A program made the translations under genes and the position numbers. From Rhodospirillaceae bacterium (GTDB taxonomy: Bacteria; Pseudomonadota; Alphaproteobacteria; Rhodospirillales; Casp-alpha2): 64,000 nt of DNA. The notes beneath the pieces are model-generated. The model ran no database searches, was not told where the DNA came from, and saw only the letters and a program-made list of their open reading frames with translations. Below, piece by piece: positions 19,055 to 27,812 of the stretch (its first letter is position 1; every line of letters starts with the position of its first letter). The DNA lies in the NCBI GenBank assembly GCA_018665815.1, contig JABJBP010000130.1, forward strand, positions 1 through 64,000. The letters run 5' to 3'.

Positions 19055-19940
19055 TCACGGTCCAAATTCGCGCAATGCTTCGCCGACCCGTGTGATCACG
19101 CCAGCCCAATCACCGATCTCAGTTTGCCGGAATAGCCGCATGGTCGGGTACCAAGGACTGTCGTCACGCTCCAGCAGCCAGCGCCAATCGGGATCGAAAC
19201 ACAGCAGTGCCCAGACGGGCTTGTCGAGTGTGCTGGCGAGGTGGGCAACCGACGTGTCCACCGATATGATCAAATCGAGATGCTGCATAGCCGCTGCGGT
19301 GTCAGCGAAATCGGTGATCAAGGGGCTCAAGTCAGTGACGGCGTTGCCGAAAATCCCGACCGCTTCACCCGGGCGGCCCAGTTGTAGACTGTATAGCGAC
19401 AGATTAGGAATTTCGGTCAGCGGCCGCAGGAAATTGGCATCCATGGAACGGTTGTGATCATTCTTCTGGGCGGCATTGCCGGCCCAGGTTAGACCAATTC
19501 GCTGATGGGGGCCGGCGGCTATACGCTGCCCCCATCTGTCCGTTAATCCGGGGGGCGGAGCTAGAAAATTACCGCGGTCTGGAATTGTGTCCAATGTCGT
19601 GTTCAACAGGCGCGGTAAATCCATCAAAGAGGCATGGTAGTCAAAAGTTGGCGGGGATTGGTTTTCCACAATTAGGATGTCGGTATAGTCGCCGTACTCC
19701 AGCAATCGGCGTAAATTTTCCGGTGCCTCAAAAATGACTTGAGCGCCCTGTGCTTTTAAAAGCCCTAGGTAGCGCGCAAATTGAATGGTGTCACTTGAGC
19801 CTTGCTCCGCGTAGACAAAAATTGTTTTCTCACTGAGCGCACCGCCGTTCCAAATTGGTTGGTCGTATTTACGTGGCCGTAACGGACGGTCGGTTAATTT
19901 CCATCGCCACCCATAATTGTTCCAACCGTTCGTGAAATCC
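19055..19940 (-). pseudogene. GT9/OGT-like glycosyltransferase half of a frameshifted TPR protein
   Basis: From about 19940 down to 19055 the minus strand stays open and reads DFTNGWNNYGWRWKL, then AEQGSSDTIQFARYL, RIGLTWAGNAAQKNDHNRS and LIISVDTSVAHLASTLDKPV. These are the hallmarks of the glycosyltransferase domain that normally follows TPR repeats in one polypeptide. There is no good start codon; the closest TTG (19705) falls inside the domain. It continues from the TPR gene if one G is added to the five-G run at 19939-19943. The acceptor of the intact enzyme is unknown. Confidence 0.85.
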
Positions 19941-20829
19941 CCCTTAACAATTGCAGAAGGCCCAGATTGTTGTGGGCTTCGGGGTAATCCGGCTGATGGG
20001 CAAGGGCGTTCTGAAAACTGCTGATCGCCTCGTCGAGCCTGCCCAAATCCTTGAACACATTACCTAGGTTATAGTGGGCTTGGGCGTATTCAGGTGAGAT
20101 TTCCAAGGCCTTTTGGAAGCTGGCGACGGCATTGTCCGGCCGTCCCATGTTCTGCAAGGCATTGCCCATGCCCAGGTTGCTGTGTGCTTCGGCAAATTCT
20201 GGCGAGATCGCGAGCGCCTTGTTGAAGCTGTCGAGCGCGCTATCAGGTGTGCCCAAATCGACCAGCACATTGCCCAAATTATTGTGTGCCTCAGCGTAAT
20301 CGGGCTTCGCCTCCGTCGCCCGGCGGAAGCTGGCGGCGGCATCTTCCAGTCTGCCTAATTCCTTAAACACATTGCCGAGGTTGTTGTGGGCCGTGGCGTG
20401 GTCCGGCTTAATCTCAACTGCCTTTTGAAAACAACCGACAGCTTCTTCCGCCTTACCCTGGCCGGCCAGGGTATTGCCGAGGTTATAATGTGCATCGGCG
20501 TATTCGGGATTGACCCCGATGGCCCGGCGGTAACTGGCCATGGCGTCATCGAGCCGGCCCAATTCCTTAAGCGCGGCGCCCAGATTGTTGTGTGCGTCGG
20601 CGTAATCGGGGTGGACGGACACGGCCTTGGAAATGAGCTCCACCGCAACGTCGTTCTGGCCCACTTGATGGGCGATGACGCCGAGCAGATGCAACGCGAC
20701 CGGGTGATTGGGGGCGGTGTCCAGGACTTGCCGATAACCAGCCTCCGCTTCGGGCAAACGTCCGGCGCCATGATGGCCGACGGCGGACTCCAAGATATGT
20801 TGGATGGAGGGCGTTTCCGCATCGACCAT
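19894..20829 (-). CDS. Tetratricopeptide-repeat protein (5' part of a frameshifted TPR-glycosyltransferase)
   Basis: About eight tandem 34-residue TPR units of the AEAHNNLGNVLVDLG type run from residue 20 to the end. Translation leaves the original frame at the G5 run (19939-19943) and stops after 15 altered residues at 19894. I take the ATG at 20829 as start, 40 bases after the senA stop; an in-frame ATG at 20916 would overlap senA. The repeats normally form a protein-binding superhelix next to a catalytic glycosyltransferase domain. Same strand and close spacing suggest co-transcription with senA. Confidence 0.8.
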   Translation of the reverse strand: MVDAETPSIQHILESAVGHHGAGRLPEAEAGYRQVLDTAPNHPVALHLLGVIAHQVGQNDVAVELISKAVSVHPDYADAHNNLGAALKELGRLDDAMASYRRAIGVNPEYADAHYNLGNTLAGQGKAEEAVGCFQKAVEIKPDHATAHNNLGNVFKELGRLEDAAASFRRATEAKPDYAEAHNNLGNVLVDLGTPDSALDSFNKALAISPEFAEAHSNLGMGNALQNMGRPDNAVASFQKALEISPEYAQAHYNLGNVFKDLGRLDEAISSFQNALAHQPDYPEAHNNLGLLQLLRGISRTVGTIMGGDGN

Positions 20830-20869
20830 GATTGTACCTATGTCTTCATCCCGGTCTTCATCCGTGGCT

Positions 20870-22204
20870 TCAACTTGGCGCCTCATTCCGGCAAACCCGG
20901 AAACCGCTGTACACATTCCAGCGGTCGGGGTGAAAATAATTCCGGTAGGTGCCGTGCATCATCCGCGATCGCGTCGTCCAACCGCCACCGCGCAGCACTT
21001 TGGTTTCGCCAAACAGCATCGTCGAATAATCCGTATAAGTATCAGCCGAAAATTCCGGGAATGGATTAAAGGTATCGGCTGTCCACTCCCAGACATTACC
21101 CAGCATCTGGCGGCATCCGAACGCGCTGTCGCCGTCGGGCAAAGCCGCGACGTCAATGGCGCCCAAGGCGCGGCCATCCAAATTGGCGTGATTAGGTGTC
21201 GGCGGTGTATCACCCCACGGGTAGCGGCGTTTAGTGGCGGCCAGCGTGCCATTGGCAGTGGGCTGGCCTAATGCCGCAACCTCCCATTCGATTTCAGTCG
21301 GCAGTCGCACGCCGGCCCAACGGCAATAGGCCTCGGCTTCAAACCAAGTGACATGGATGACGGGTTCGTGGTCGGGCAGGGCGATATCTTGCTCAAAGCG
21401 CCGCATTCGCCATTCGCCCGGCCCGTCTTCAACCCAGTACCCGGGGTGTTTGATGGCCCGATCATTGCGCCATTTAATACCTTCATCAGACCACAAGTCA
21501 TCGCGCGTGTAGCCATCGTCGGCGACAAACGCGGCAAACTCGGCATTGGTGATGGGGGCCTTGGCGATAGAGAAGGGCGCGACCTTCACTTCGTGGGCGT
21601 ATTTTTCATTGTCGAACAGGAAGGGTGCTGATTTCGGTGCGCCCAGCATGAAGGTACCGCCAGGGATATTGACAAATCCTGGGTGCGGTCCGGCGTTTCG
21701 TTCTTCGGACACATCGGCGGCGACGGTCAGTATGGGGGTTGGGTAGGCCAAAGTCTGGCGGGCCCAGAGGAAAGCTTCGGTGTGCATGTCTTCGTGAAAG
21801 ACGCCGAATTGATAGATAAAACTGTCTTGTTCGCTGGCGAAGTTATCGTCCGATATGTCGCCCAGGCGTTCGATCAGTACGTCGAAGACGCCCTGCATAT
21901 ACGCCAGCGTGTCGTCCAGGCTGAGTAACGGTAAGTCCCAGCGGGTATCGTGAGCAATGGAAATGGAATCGTAAAGCTCATCAGCTTTCGGACCCAGAAG
22001 GCTGTCGCGGCCATACAATTCGCGCAGGATGAAATATTCGTAGAAATAGGCGACGTGACCGATTTCCCAGCGCAGCGGATTGACCGTGCGAATTTTTGGC
22101 CCCATCAATTGATCGTCGCTGAGGCCCGACACAAGTTCGAGTGTGCGGGACCGTGCGTCTTGCATCATCGCGGCTAAGTGTGCGGTAGTAACGGGAACAG
22201 TCAT
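20870..22204 (-). CDS. senA: EgtB-like sulfoxide/selenoxide synthase, probable SenA (selenoneine synthesis)
   Basis: A 444-residue non-haem iron enzyme. The N-terminal DinB-like domain has WEIGHVAYF near residue 48 and the metal-binding H-x3-H-x-E (HEDMHTE) near residue 137. The C-terminal formylglycine-generating-type domain has NIPGGTFMLGA, GNVWEWTADTF and LRGGGWTTR. Alone it would be called EgtB (ergothioneine). Adjacent senB and selD make the selenium version, SenA, more likely: it joins a selenosugar to hercynine by oxidative C-Se bond formation. No egtD-like hercynine synthase is visible here. Only 35 bases separate it from divergent senB. Confidence 0.82.
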   Translation of the reverse strand: MTVPVTTAHLAAMMQDARSRTLELVSGLSDDQLMGPKIRTVNPLRWEIGHVAYFYEYFILRELYGRDSLLGPKADELYDSISIAHDTRWDLPLLSLDDTLAYMQGVFDVLIERLGDISDDNFASEQDSFIYQFGVFHEDMHTEAFLWARQTLAYPTPILTVAADVSEERNAGPHPGFVNIPGGTFMLGAPKSAPFLFDNEKYAHEVKVAPFSIAKAPITNAEFAAFVADDGYTRDDLWSDEGIKWRNDRAIKHPGYWVEDGPGEWRMRRFEQDIALPDHEPVIHVTWFEAEAYCRWAGVRLPTEIEWEVAALGQPTANGTLAATKRRYPWGDTPPTPNHANLDGRALGAIDVAALPDGDSAFGCRQMLGNVWEWTADTFNPFPEFSADTYTDYSTMLFGETKVLRGGGWTTRSRMMHGTYRNYFHPDRWNVYSGFRVCRNEAPS

Positions 22205-22239
22205 CGGAGTCTTTCGGTGTTACGCGACGGAACGATAGC

Positions 22240-23193
22240 ATGAAAATTAGCCTGATAACGCCGGCCAAGAAACACTCGAAGAACGGCAATCGTGCGTCGG
22301 CGTTGCGCTGGGCCGGATTTCTGCGCGATCAAGGTCATCGGGTGCGGATCGATGTCGATTACACCGGCGAGCCCGCGGACCTGATGATTGCGTTGCATGC
22401 ATGGCGTAGCGCCGATGCCATATTGCGTTACCGTGAGCGATTTCCGGGCGGGCCACTAATCGTGGCGCTTGGTGGCACCGACGTGAACACGTTCTTGAAG
22501 ACCGATCCCGATGTCACGCTGCGCTCAATGCAAATGGCCGACGCCATGGTCTGTCTACATGACTTGATTGCCCAGGAATTGCCCAAACGATTGCGCAATA
22601 AACTGCACGTAGTTCGGCAATCAGCAGAGGCCTTGCCGGTTCGCCGGAACCCCGGCGGGCGGCATTTTGATGTCTGCGTCGTCGGCCACCTACGCGAAGA
22701 AAAGGATCCCTACCGCGCCGCACTGGCAGCGAGGTTGGTGCCGGAGGCGTCGAAGCTTCGGGTTATTCATTTTGGTAAAGCGCACAGCGAGGAATGGGCG
22801 GAACGCGCGCGGGCCGAAATGGTGGCAAGCCCCCGCTATATTTGGAAAGGCGAGGTGCCGCGCTGGCGGGTCCGCCGCGAATTTGTCCGGACCCGTTTGA
22901 TGGTCATCAGTTCCAATCAGGAAGGCGGTGCGAACGTGGTGTCCGAAGCCGTCGTCGCCGGAGTGCCAGTGATTGCATCAGACATTGCCGGCAATATCGG
23001 CCTGCTGGGTCTGGATTATGAAGGCTACTATCCTGTCCGAGATGCCGATGCGCTGGCCGTGCAATTGCACCGCGCCGAGGTCGAGGATAGTTATTTGCGG
23101 TCTTTGGAAGTCCAGTGTGAAAAATTAAGATCGGGCTTCACGCCGGCCCGCGAGGCCGCGGGTTGGAAAAAGGTGATCGCCACCGTCACTTAA
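22240..23193 (+). CDS. senB: Selenosugar synthase SenB (GT4-like)
   Basis: A 317-residue GT-B protein. The N-terminal block KISLITPAKKHSKNGNR and the arginine-rich middle fit the small glycosyltransferase family that includes SenB. The C-terminal EGGANVVSE (E-x7-E) and AGVPVIASDIAGNIGLLG are the donor site. Published work on selenoneine shows SenB using selenophosphate and a UDP-sugar to form a selenosugar. Assignment here rests on family resemblance plus position between an EgtB-like gene and selD. Its stop lies one base from the selD stop. Confidence 0.85.
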   Translation: MKISLITPAKKHSKNGNRASALRWAGFLRDQGHRVRIDVDYTGEPADLMIALHAWRSADAILRYRERFPGGPLIVALGGTDVNTFLKTDPDVTLRSMQMADAMVCLHDLIAQELPKRLRNKLHVVRQSAEALPVRRNPGGRHFDVCVVGHLREEKDPYRAALAARLVPEASKLRVIHFGKAHSEEWAERARAEMVASPRYIWKGEVPRWRVRREFVRTRLMVISSNQEGGANVVSEAVVAGVPVIASDIAGNIGLLGLDYEGYYPVRDADALAVQLHRAEVEDSYLRSLEVQCEKLRSGFTPAREAAGWKKVIATVT

Positions 23194-23194
23194 A

Positions 23195-25462
23195 TTAGGG
23201 GGCCAAGGTTACCGGTTCCAGATGCTCGCTCTCAGCACTCACCGTGCCGATGACGCAGGCGTGCCCGTAACCGGCGGCTTTAAGCGCGGCCAGACACGCA
23301 TCGGCGTTGGCTGCGGGTAGACTGGCCAGTAGCCCGCCCGATGTTTGTGGGTCGAACATCAAGGGGTAAAGCGGGCTTTTTGTCGCGTCCTCCATATTGC
23401 GGATCGCGCGCCGGAGCCGAACGTTCGCCGGTTGCAGACTGGATAGAATACCGAGTGCAATGGTGTCCAGTGCGCCGTCCATTACCGGCAAGGCGTCCAG
23501 GTTAATCGCCACATCGACGCCCGACGGGCGGATCATTTCAACCATGTGCCCCAGCAATCCAAACCCGGTGATATCGGTGCATGCCGTCGCCCCGTGCGCA
23601 TAAACCGCCTCGGCTGCCAGCCGGTTCGATTGGACCATCGATGCCAACGCACCTTCGATCCAGCGGCCTTTGGCTTTTTGTTGCATGTCGGCAGCGAACA
23701 GCGTGCCAGTGCCCAGTGGCTTGGTCAGGATCAACACGTTGCCGGGCATCATGCCGGCTTTGCGCAATATTTTTTCCTTCGGCGCAAACCCGTTGACGGA
23801 AAACCCAAGCGCCAGTTCGGCACCTTCGCTGGTGTGCCCGCCGACCAACGCCGCGTCGGCGTCGTTCAATACCTCTATGGCGCCCGACATCAACTGATGC
23901 AGGGTGTCTTCGACCTTGCGCTCAATACCATAAGGCACTGTGGCAATGGCCAAGGCCGACTGGGCTTGTGCGCCCATGGCAAATATATCGCTGAGGCTGT
24001 GGTTGGCGGAGACTTGTCCAAAGATATAGGGATCATCAATGAAAGATCGAAAATAATCGACCGTGTGGACCATCACATGCCCCGCCGGCACCTCGGCGAC
24101 CGCCGCGTCATCGGGTTCGTGCAGGCCGATCAGGATATCATCGCGGGGCGCGGGTTTGAGTTCCGAAATTGCGCGGCTCAGCACCGTCGCACCGACTTTC
24201 GCACCGCAGCCGCCACATCGCATGGCGATGGCGGAGATTTCTTTCAGGGTATCAGCGTCCGCCAAGCCGGGGTCGAAGGCGGTCGGGGCGTCTTCCTCCA
24301 TTTCCGGGAGGTCGGAGTACTTGTCCATCCAGCGGCGGTCGATCCAATCTTTCCACTTCCAGATCCACGCACCTTCCATTGCCCAGTTGGCTTTTGTTGC
24401 GACGGCGAATTTGTCGCCAGTGCTAACCAAGGCAAGGATCGTGCGCTGCGGAGAGAATGGTTTTAAGGGTTGGTTGGAGAGTGCGCGGCGCAGGTTCTCG
24501 CTTAAGGGCTTACCCTGACGGACCGCAAATACACCGGCCTTGGGGCGTGGATGATTGACCACGGCAGCGATATCACCGGCGGCAAAGACACCGTCGTGGG
24601 ATGTGGATTGTAGCGCATCGCTGACGGTAATGAAGCCGTCCGCGTCGACGTCCAGGCCGCACTGTTTCAACCAATCGGGCGCGCTGGCACCAGTCACCCA
24701 CAAGATTTCATCAAGGTTGATATCAGTGCCGTCGGAAAGCGTGATGCCGCCGTTGCTGGCCCGTGCCGCGCCGGCGCCCTGGTAAACGTGAATGCCGCGC
24801 TCATTCATCACCTGCTCAAATCGCTGCCCGACACCTTCAGGGAATGCCGGCATAATGCGTTCTGACTGGCTGATGAGATGCAGGCTGAGTTCTTCTGAGC
24901 TGCGTCCAAGTTCGTCCAGTATGCCCCGGAGCCTGAATTGAATGGCCAACAACAGTTCAACACCGGCAGCACCCGCACCGACAACGCCGATACGGTGCGG
25001 CCCGGATTTTTCCAAAATCCGTTCAACGAGCCCATGCCATTTGTCGACAAAGCGGTTAATCGGTTTGACCGGGGTCGCGAATTCGGCAGCGCCGGGGACA
25101 TTGCTGATTTCCGGCCGTGACCCGATGTTGATCGACAAAAGATCATAGGCAACGGGGGGGCGGCCGTCGCACCGCACTAACTTATTTTCAAAATCAATGC
25201 CGATGGCTTCGGCCTGATAGAGCCGGGCACCGGCGAATCGGCAAAGCGGGCGCAAATCGACATGCGCCTCATCATAGCTGTAGTGACCGGCCACGTAGCC
25301 CGGCAGCATGCCGGAATAAGGTGTGTGGACATCGCGCGCGATCATTGTCAGGCGCACACCGGGCACCGGTTTCATGCCGAAACTCTTCAGCACGGCCACG
25401 TGGGAATGCCCGCCGCCGATAAGCACGAGGTCTTTGAGAACGGGATCGGCGCTGGATTTCAT
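23195..25462 (-). CDS. selD: Selenide, water dikinase fused to NADH-dehydrogenase-like domain (SelD/SenC)
   Basis: A 755-residue fusion. Residues 1-370 are a pyridine nucleotide-disulfide oxidoreductase: LIGGGHSHVAVLKSF (FAD site), GVVGAGAAGVELLLA (NAD site), ITVSDALQSTSHDGVFAAGD. From about residue 405 it is a selenophosphate synthetase with RCGGCGAKVG, where a Cys, not selenocysteine, takes the catalytic place, then GLHEPDDAA and VGGHTSEGAELALG. It makes selenophosphate from selenide and ATP; the oxidoreductase half may supply reduced selenium. The ATG at 25462 is preferred over the preceding TTG. Next to senA/senB it is the SenC-equivalent. Confidence 0.9.
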   Translation of the reverse strand: MKSSADPVLKDLVLIGGGHSHVAVLKSFGMKPVPGVRLTMIARDVHTPYSGMLPGYVAGHYSYDEAHVDLRPLCRFAGARLYQAEAIGIDFENKLVRCDGRPPVAYDLLSINIGSRPEISNVPGAAEFATPVKPINRFVDKWHGLVERILEKSGPHRIGVVGAGAAGVELLLAIQFRLRGILDELGRSSEELSLHLISQSERIMPAFPEGVGQRFEQVMNERGIHVYQGAGAARASNGGITLSDGTDINLDEILWVTGASAPDWLKQCGLDVDADGFITVSDALQSTSHDGVFAAGDIAAVVNHPRPKAGVFAVRQGKPLSENLRRALSNQPLKPFSPQRTILALVSTGDKFAVATKANWAMEGAWIWKWKDWIDRRWMDKYSDLPEMEEDAPTAFDPGLADADTLKEISAIAMRCGGCGAKVGATVLSRAISELKPAPRDDILIGLHEPDDAAVAEVPAGHVMVHTVDYFRSFIDDPYIFGQVSANHSLSDIFAMGAQAQSALAIATVPYGIERKVEDTLHQLMSGAIEVLNDADAALVGGHTSEGAELALGFSVNGFAPKEKILRKAGMMPGNVLILTKPLGTGTLFAADMQQKAKGRWIEGALASMVQSNRLAAEAVYAHGATACTDITGFGLLGHMVEMIRPSGVDVAINLDALPVMDGALDTIALGILSSLQPANVRLRRAIRNMEDATKSPLYPLMFDPQTSGGLLASLPAANADACLAALKAAGYGHACVIGTVSAESEHLEPVTLAP

Positions 25463-25760: not shown

Positions 25761-27812
25761 ATGGACGCCAGCAGTGATACCCAGACCGTGCGGAGCGTTT
25801 GCCCGCTTGATTGCCCCGATACTTGCAGCCTGTCGGTGACGACGGCTGGTGGGGAGATTCTGGATGTCCGTGGCTCAACGGATAATCCCTATACGGCCGG
25901 CGTCGTCTGCACCAAAGTCACGCGGTCCTATCCGCAATTCGTACATGGCGACGGGCGCCTGACGCATCCCTTGCGCCGCATCGGTGAGAAAGGCGCCGGG
26001 GAATTTGAGCAAATTTCCTGGGATGACGCTTTGGATATTGTCCATGAGGGCTTTTCGAAAGCCATTGCCGCGCACGGGCCGCAGTCGGTAATGCCGTTCA
26101 ATTATGCAGGGCCGCACGGCGAACTGGCGGCGGGATCCATGGACCGGCGGTTTTTTTATAAAATTGGCGCGACCTTGCTGAACCGCGGCCCGCTCTGCGG
26201 CATCGTTCGGGGCACGGCATTCACGTCGCTGTTCGGCGATGCGCCGGGCATGGCGCCCGAACAGGCCCAGCATGCTGACTTGATTGTCGTTTGGGGCAAT
26301 AACGTCACAGTCTCGAACCTCCACCTGACGCGTGTCATCAAGGCGGCACGCGCAGACGGAGCGCGGCTGATTGTTATTGACCCGAAGCGCATAAAAATTG
26401 CCGAGCAGGCCGACCTGCACATGCATATCGAACCCGGCACCGACGTCGTATTGGCGATGGCTTTGGCGGCGGAATTGGAACGTCGGGGCGGCTTTGATGC
26501 GGCGTTCATTGCTGAATGGACTCAAGGTTTCGACGCCTATATGACCGAGGCGCGAAAGTACACGCCCGACCAGGTCACCGAAACTTGCGGCATCAGTCGC
26601 CAGAAATTCGACCGAATGGTCGATTGGTATCTGGCCGCCGAGCGTGTCGCGGTATCGGTGGGCAATGGCATTGAGCGCGGTCGCAGCGGTGGTTCGGGCT
26701 TGCGCGCCGCCATGGCTGTTCAGGCGCTGACCGGCAACTTTGGTCGCCTCGGCGCCGGGGTATTCGCGAAGCCCGGCTTCGCGTTTCCGAAAACCACCGA
26801 CAAACTGCAACGCCCCGACCTGATCCCTGAGGGCACGCGGATGTTTAACATCGTTGATGTGGCGAAGTTAATGCTGGATGAAACGCTCGATCCGCCGATT
26901 GCCGCGACGATGATCTATAACCACAACCCGGTGGCGACGCACCCCGACCAGAACCGCATGCGCCGAGCCTTGTCGCGCGATGATTTGTTCGTTGCCGGCT
27001 GCGACGTGGTGATGACCGACAGTTTAGCCTACGCCGACGTGATTTTGCCGGCGGCCAGCCATTTTGAGATCAACGATCTCTACGGCGCCTATGGCCACAG
27101 CTATCTGCAACGCGCCGAGCCGGTCATTCCGTGTGTCGGCGAAGCCCTGCCGAACACCGAAATATTTCGCAGGTTGGCGGCCCGGTTCGGCTTTGATGAC
27201 CCGATGTTCAAAGACGATGACGCGGCCTTGATGAATGCCGCCGTCGACGGAGATGATCCTAGGCTTGGCGGCCACAAACCCAGCGAAATTCCTCTTGATA
27301 AGGCGATCTTGATTGACGCCGGCGGTGGTGAGCCGATGGTTTTGTGCAAGAATCATGAGCCGAAAACGCCGTCGGGAAAAATTGAATTGTTCAGCCAAGA
27401 CCTGGAAGACCGTTTCGGTTATGGCTTGCCACGGTTTGAACCCGTAACCCGCGACCGGCCGTTCTCGATCATTTCGCCGTCGTCCTCGAAACGCACGAAC
27501 GCGACCTTTGGTGGCTGCCAAGATTCGCAAGGTTTGGAAGTTTGCGAGATCAGTCCTGCTGATGCCAAGTCGCTTGATGTTGCCGATGACGATACCTTGA
27601 AGATATCGAACGCACAGGGCGAGGTGTTGTTGAAAGCCCGTGTCTCGGACGCCGTCCGCCCTGGCGTGCTCTACAGCCCGAAAGGCACTTGGTTGGCGAC
27701 GAGCGAGACCAACCAGACCGTCAACGCGCTGATCTCATCGGAAATCCGCACCGATATTGAAGACGGCGCGTGCTACAACGAAACCTTCGTCGATATCGCC
27801 AAACTCGCCTAG
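25761..27812 (+). CDS. Molybdopterin-dependent oxidoreductase with N-terminal 4Fe-4S site (formate dehydrogenase/BisC family)
   Basis: A 683-residue enzyme. Cys14, Cys18, Cys22 and Cys50 (CPLDCPDTC ... VVCTK) form the N-terminal 4Fe-4S motif. Segments such as ISWDDALDIV, VWGNNVTVSNLHL and VIDPKRIKIAEQADLHM bind the bis-MGD cofactor, and the C-terminal 130 residues (PSGKIELFS, VSDAVRPGVLYSPKG) form the dinucleotide-binding cap. No Tat signal is present, so it should be cytoplasmic. Substrate is unknown. It stands alone, without electron-transfer subunits. Confidence 0.87.
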   Translation: MDASSDTQTVRSVCPLDCPDTCSLSVTTAGGEILDVRGSTDNPYTAGVVCTKVTRSYPQFVHGDGRLTHPLRRIGEKGAGEFEQISWDDALDIVHEGFSKAIAAHGPQSVMPFNYAGPHGELAAGSMDRRFFYKIGATLLNRGPLCGIVRGTAFTSLFGDAPGMAPEQAQHADLIVVWGNNVTVSNLHLTRVIKAARADGARLIVIDPKRIKIAEQADLHMHIEPGTDVVLAMALAAELERRGGFDAAFIAEWTQGFDAYMTEARKYTPDQVTETCGISRQKFDRMVDWYLAAERVAVSVGNGIERGRSGGSGLRAAMAVQALTGNFGRLGAGVFAKPGFAFPKTTDKLQRPDLIPEGTRMFNIVDVAKLMLDETLDPPIAATMIYNHNPVATHPDQNRMRRALSRDDLFVAGCDVVMTDSLAYADVILPAASHFEINDLYGAYGHSYLQRAEPVIPCVGEALPNTEIFRRLAARFGFDDPMFKDDDAALMNAAVDGDDPRLGGHKPSEIPLDKAILIDAGGGEPMVLCKNHEPKTPSGKIELFSQDLEDRFGYGLPRFEPVTRDRPFSIISPSSSKRTNATFGGCQDSQGLEVCEISPADAKSLDVADDDTLKISNAQGEVLLKARVSDAVRPGVLYSPKGTWLATSETNQTVNALISSEIRTDIEDGACYNETFVDIAKLA

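Follow-up and report, generated by a model that had tools for sequence, protein, structure and literature searches.

A probable selenoneine cassette with a separate-branch SenA and an Ndh-SelD fusion in a Rhodospirillaceae bacterium

The window analyzed here, a stretch of 64,000 nucleotides from a Rhodospirillaceae bacterium, an alphaproteobacterium of marine type, harbors three adjacent genes whose products resemble EgtB, SenB and SelD. Their predicted position and strand are borne out by the sequence, and family assignments were made by profile search:

20870..22204, minus strand: probable senA, encoding an EgtB-like protein of 444 aa with DinB_2 and FGE-sulfatase domains
22205..22239, no strand: intergenic gap of exactly 35 bp between the head-to-head starts of senA and senB
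22240..23193, plus strand: predicted senB, encoding a SenB-like, GT4-type Se-glycosyltransferase of 317 aa
23195..25462/25465, minus strand: senC/selD, encoding an FAD/NAD-SelD fusion of about 755 aa

The selD gene probably starts with the ATG at 25462, and its stop lies 1 bp from that of senB. The scores of the cassette families (NCBIfam models NF041186, TIGR04348, TIGR03169 and TIGR00476) are far above chance level.

The orientation of the three genes, described as odd in the original prediction, is in fact the conserved majority layout of this branch. Among the 80 nearest relatives of the EgtB-like protein, senB was observed in 78 loci; in 75 of them it diverges from senA head to head, and the other 3 show a tandem arrangement. 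The gap in the 75 divergent loci measures 11–176 bp with a median of 27 bp, where starts were set by alignment to the window protein. A selD gene was seen in 53 relatives, facing senB in 47 and following senA in 6; the remaining loci either have no selD close by or run into the end of the contig. The match spans of senB and selD lie 5 apart in coordinates in 16 of the 47 convergent loci. Head-to-head senA and senB genes also occur in three Variovorax-type loci (L088, L090, and L092) and in the alphaproteobacterial locus L089. In the three Variovorax-type loci, however, selD lies downstream of senB on the same strand, whereas the SelD of the window is an Ndh-SelD fusion encoded by a gene that faces senB.

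The 35 bases predicted between the senA and senB starts were confirmed, and such a gap could accommodate two ribosome-binding sites, whereas two promoters would scarcely fit. Placing a promoter inside a coding region is therefore a fair inference from the gap, although neither a promoter site nor a clear codon footprint accompanies it. A sequence scan revealed no sigma-70-like site in or near the gap, and promoter-like sites in the cassette region are fewer than in shuffled sequence. Codon conservation is not raised at the 5′ end of senA (first blocks 0.42 and 0.41 vs. a mean of 0.43), and the first block of senB (0.48 vs. a mean of 0.40, sd 0.035) exhibits a slight excess that is too little to claim. 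An Rfam search identified no RNA element near the cassette.

Toward lower coordinates on the minus strand, a TPR protein encoded at 19894..20916 and the glycosyltransferase-9 domain at 19055..19705 occupy two successive frames at 19055..20916, which are read as one putative TPR-GT9 gene split by a frameshift and representing either a pseudogene or an assembly error. On the other side, a molybdopterin oxidoreductase gene (25761..27812, plus strand) adjoins selD. Its link to selenium is unlikely because the gene is not conserved beside sen cassettes and the genome yields no match to YqeB, a marker of selenium-dependent molybdenum hydroxylases. The TPR protein, PotBC-like permeases, molybdopterin oxidoreductase, peroxiredoxin and MATE genes were all rejected as parts of the system since they are not conserved beside the cassette across the 80 relatives.

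By its sequence, the product of the central gene is assigned as a selenosugar synthase SenB. It scores 396 bits with TIGR04348 (cut-off 300), and its top PDB matches are the four SenB-type structures 8jjn, 8jjq, 8fbx, and 8k5u. The protein carries the motif NGNR at residue 15, and the lysine of its REEKDP segment (EKDP at 154) aligns with the catalytic K158 of Variovorax SenB, the residue that cleaves the Se-P bond (PMC10891094). The sugar-donor motif at 228 reads EGGANV in place of EGGAHV, a variant shared by 73 of 78 relatives.

The third protein matches both TIGR03169 (Nterm_to_SelD; 495 bits, cut-off 310) and TIGR00476 (SelD; 291 bits, cut-off 125) and stays under the cut-off of the “fusion_not_SelD” model TIGR04369 (480 vs. 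700 bits). It consists of an NDH-2-like FAD/NAD oxidoreductase domain (residues about 12–383), whose nearest PDB structures are NDH-2 enzymes, and a SelD domain (about 415–750) with the active site C-G-G-C at 417–420. C417, C420, and K423 are invariant in 42 sequences. In the same 42 sequences, no redox-active cysteine pair was found in the FAD domain, where C75, C99, and C269 are not invariant; lacking any invariant cysteine, the domain is thus no typical disulfide reductase. CxxC-bearing Ndh-SelD fusions have been known since 2008 and accounted for about 40% of ocean-derived Cys-SelDs (PMC2398784). They are common in aquatic bacteria and share with the window protein the NADH dehydrogenase-like FAD domain at the N-terminus as well as the CxxC motif, here C417-GG-C420 (PMC2398784, PMC2432076, PMC4561486). 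NADH dehydrogenase has been proposed as the source of the SelD substrate, and the selenide-supplying role of the FAD domain put forward in the original prediction, which is hypothetical, would be consistent with this literature (PMC2432076).

The EgtB-like protein exceeds the cut-off of the SenA model NF041186 (464 vs. 420 bits) and remains under that of the EgtB model TIGR03440 (332 vs. 360 bits). It is a probable selenoneine synthase SenA, predicted to form a C-Se bond in an iron-dependent manner. In a sequence search, its best PDB match is OvsA (8ux5/8u41); OvsA structures comprise these two entries and 8u42. OvsA acts as selenoxide synthase in the pathway to ovoselenol and was reportedly described by Kayrouz et al. 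in 2024 (Nat Chem 16:1868). The sequence score of the window protein is 326 bits against OvsA and 193 bits against Variovorax SenA, and the latter is missing an internal segment of about 50 residues that the window protein has. Three OvsA-type proteins, L093, L094, and L095 (genomes G174, G070, and G138), which carry the OvsA pocket YPFMS / YRQAY, also score 435–441 bits with NF041186, above the cut-off of 420. The NCBIfam model “selenoneine synthase SenA” hence names OvsA enzymes too. As OvsA-type proteins pass this model and the best PDB match is itself OvsA, neither the model nor the best match decides between selenoneine and ovoselenol.

In a tree of 112 proteins, 21 proteobacterial EgtB sequences separate at 100%, and EgtB including the Mycolicibacterium reference occupies one side of a branch with 97% support. 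OvsA forms a single clade at 100% and Variovorax-type SenA another, while the window SenA and all 80 nearest relatives form a third branch apart from both. A careful tree of 37 proteins supports the sen group as a whole (window branch, Variovorax SenA and OvsA) at 100/97, the OvsA clade at 100/100 and the window branch at 71/85, and fixes no branching order among the three. Clustering with EgtB, which the original prediction had proposed as a test, is seen in neither tree, as the protein falls outside EgtB in both. The window branch is found across Alpha- and Gammaproteobacteria and Acidobacteria. To our knowledge, none of its members has been assayed or characterized, the characterized SenA belonging to the Variovorax-type branch.

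The alignment identifies the pocket segments YTDYS and YRNYF in the window SenA, corresponding to YPFMS and YRQAY in OvsA. The aligned pocket positions are Y-N-Y-F in the window protein, Y-N-F-F in Variovorax SenA and M-Q-A-Y in OvsA. The pattern Y-N-[FY]-[FY] is present in nearly all 80 relatives; two, the gammaproteobacterial homologs L064 and L070, have T at the position of the otherwise invariant N (WRTYYGP). The three iron-ligand histidines are retained. Judged by the aligned pocket residues, the window pocket appears to be of the hercynine type, as in SenA and EgtB and unlike the histidine type of OvsA. The sequence of 8ux5 departs from that of 8u41 at exactly these pocket residues and reads like SenA, so that 8ux5 looks like an engineered hercynine-type OvsA variant. 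Another SenA/EgtB-like gene (L096, genome G202; pocket YVDYSQ / FRNFYQG) immediately precedes a co-directional SelD gene, and the 4 kb visible contain no SenB match.

A hercynine route, the second test named in the original prediction, is present in the genome. A different contig (C113) carries egtD (TIGR03438, 406 bits) adjacent to a canonical egtB (574 bits), and this pair renders hercynine available to the organism. Of the 80 relatives, 13 carry egtD within the sen locus itself, for instance right behind senA (L013, L015, L021, L029, and L034), between senA and selD (L066) or behind senA-senB (L075 and L086). Of 50 genomes of relatives, 40 have egtD (37 with a score over the cut-off), as opposed to 43 of 200 genomes, about 21%, in the phylum background (40 over the cut-off). 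The ten relative genomes in which egtD was not found are MAGs of unknown completeness, so that its absence is weak evidence. Two groups of related sen-bearing MAGs are without detected egtD (L027, L032, and L052; L017, L023, and L028), which may reflect either incomplete assembly or hercynine obtained by another route. Taken together, the trees, the pocket residues and the hercynine supply make hercynine the likely substrate and selenoneine the likely product.

A genome-wide profile search identified one true SelD, the window copy. In this assembly, rated 98% complete, SelA, 2-selenouridine synthase (SelU) and YqeB gave no match, and the SelB matches were under the cut-off and resemble other translation GTPases. 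With a single SelD and none of these partners, selenoneine is the only recognizable selenium use here. In the relatives, selA is over the cut-off in 30 of 50 genomes and selU in 20; nine have neither, although in one of these nine a contig terminates in a fragment of selU. Selenoneine-only selenium use is therefore a minority condition, common to the near relative L008. A SelD lacking Sec or SeU partners was termed “orphan” in 2008 (PMC2432076), and senB explains the orphan SelD of this genome.

Several other readings of the locus have to be weighed against these data. The EgtB-like protein could be an ordinary or duplicate EgtB sulfoxide synthase for ergothioneine that stands beside senB and selD by chance, as it shares with EgtB the fold, the domain set, the three-His iron site and probably the hercynine substrate, and reaches 332 bits with TIGR03440. 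This chance is close to negligible: the score is below the cut-off, the protein does not fall into the EgtB clade, and a canonical egtB-egtD pair is present elsewhere in the genome, on C113, for which reasons the assignment to EgtB was rejected; furthermore, senB adjoins senA in 78 of 80 relatives. In weighing EgtB against SenA, the original prediction arrived at a SenA-type enzyme, which holds, but it omitted OvsA. As a homologous iron-dependent C-Se bond-forming enzyme, OvsA would join selenium to histidine, the product being ovoselenol or 5-selenohistidine, and both the top PDB match and the passing of the SenA model by OvsA-type proteins speak for this assignment. It is nevertheless highly unlikely and was rejected on the basis of clade, pocket and gene context: a clade with 100% support holds the OvsA-type proteins and excludes the window protein; the pocket is M / Q-A in OvsA vs. 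Y / N-Y in the window protein; egtD accompanies the window branch; and no methyltransferase was found among the scanned flanking genes. The match to 8ux5 loses weight in view of its apparently engineered, hercynine-type pocket.

Another reading concerns SelD, which could serve chiefly selenoproteins or selenouridine and neighbor senAB incidentally. The frequency of selA and selU among the relatives is in line with such a role, as is a published survey in which Sec machinery was present in every genome with extended SelD (PMC4561486). In contrast, none was found in the window genome, where the fusion lies inside a sen cassette, and neither SelU, YqeB nor a SelB over the cut-off was detected; the close spacing of senB and selD in convergent relatives also argues against an incidental position, rendering this role very improbable. 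Finally, the product of the window SenA branch might be a third selenometabolite that has not been described, formed for instance from a hercynine derivative, while the SelD FAD domain channels selenide in cis; we consider this quite unlikely.

The preferred reading, to which we assign a probability of roughly 0.88, is that the three genes constitute a sen cassette making selenoneine. The proposal of such a cassette in the original prediction is thereby supported by the SenA, SenB and SelD scores, the trees, the pocket and the egtD context. Gene identities, active-site residues, tree position, egtD co-occurrence and the absence of another recognizable selenium pathway are direct observations; the reactions would follow those of the characterized Variovorax enzymes, and both the function of the FAD domain and the cellular product are conjectural. 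According to the published pathway (PMC10891094, PMC9814287), SelD would convert selenide and ATP to selenophosphate, from which SenB, using a UDP-sugar, would form a selenosugar. The iron enzyme SenA would then use O2 to join the selenium of the selenosugar to the imidazole of hercynine, and subsequent loss of the sugar would yield selenoneine. Hercynine, the precursor common to ergothioneine and selenoneine, would be supplied by the EgtD encoded with EgtB on the other contig. The NDH-2-like FAD domain probably supplies SelD with reduced selenium, i.e., selenide, using NAD(P)H as the reductant.

The closest known system is the sen cluster of Variovorax paradoxus, comprising SenA, SenB, and SenC and producing selenoneine (PMC10891094, PMC9814287; attributed in PMC13188914 to Kayrouz et al. 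2022, Nature 610:199). Both systems share the three enzyme families, the SenB catalytic residues and the hercynine-type SenA pocket, whereas the window SenA belongs to a different branch and has about 50 extra residues. The selenoneine pathway and the Ndh-SelD fusion are already known and the gene layout is usual for this family; the window adds a well-supported cassette of a separate SenA branch.

The failure of the public SenA model to separate SenA from OvsA implies that some database names may be wrong. Sequence-supported selenoneine cassettes now reach a separate branch of SenA, one frequently encountered in aquatic bacteria, including those of Rhodospirillales type, which suggests sen cassettes as a possible reason for the abundance of Ndh-SelD in marine data. 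An organism in which a small molecule is the only recognizable selenium use would provide a clean model for selenoneine function.
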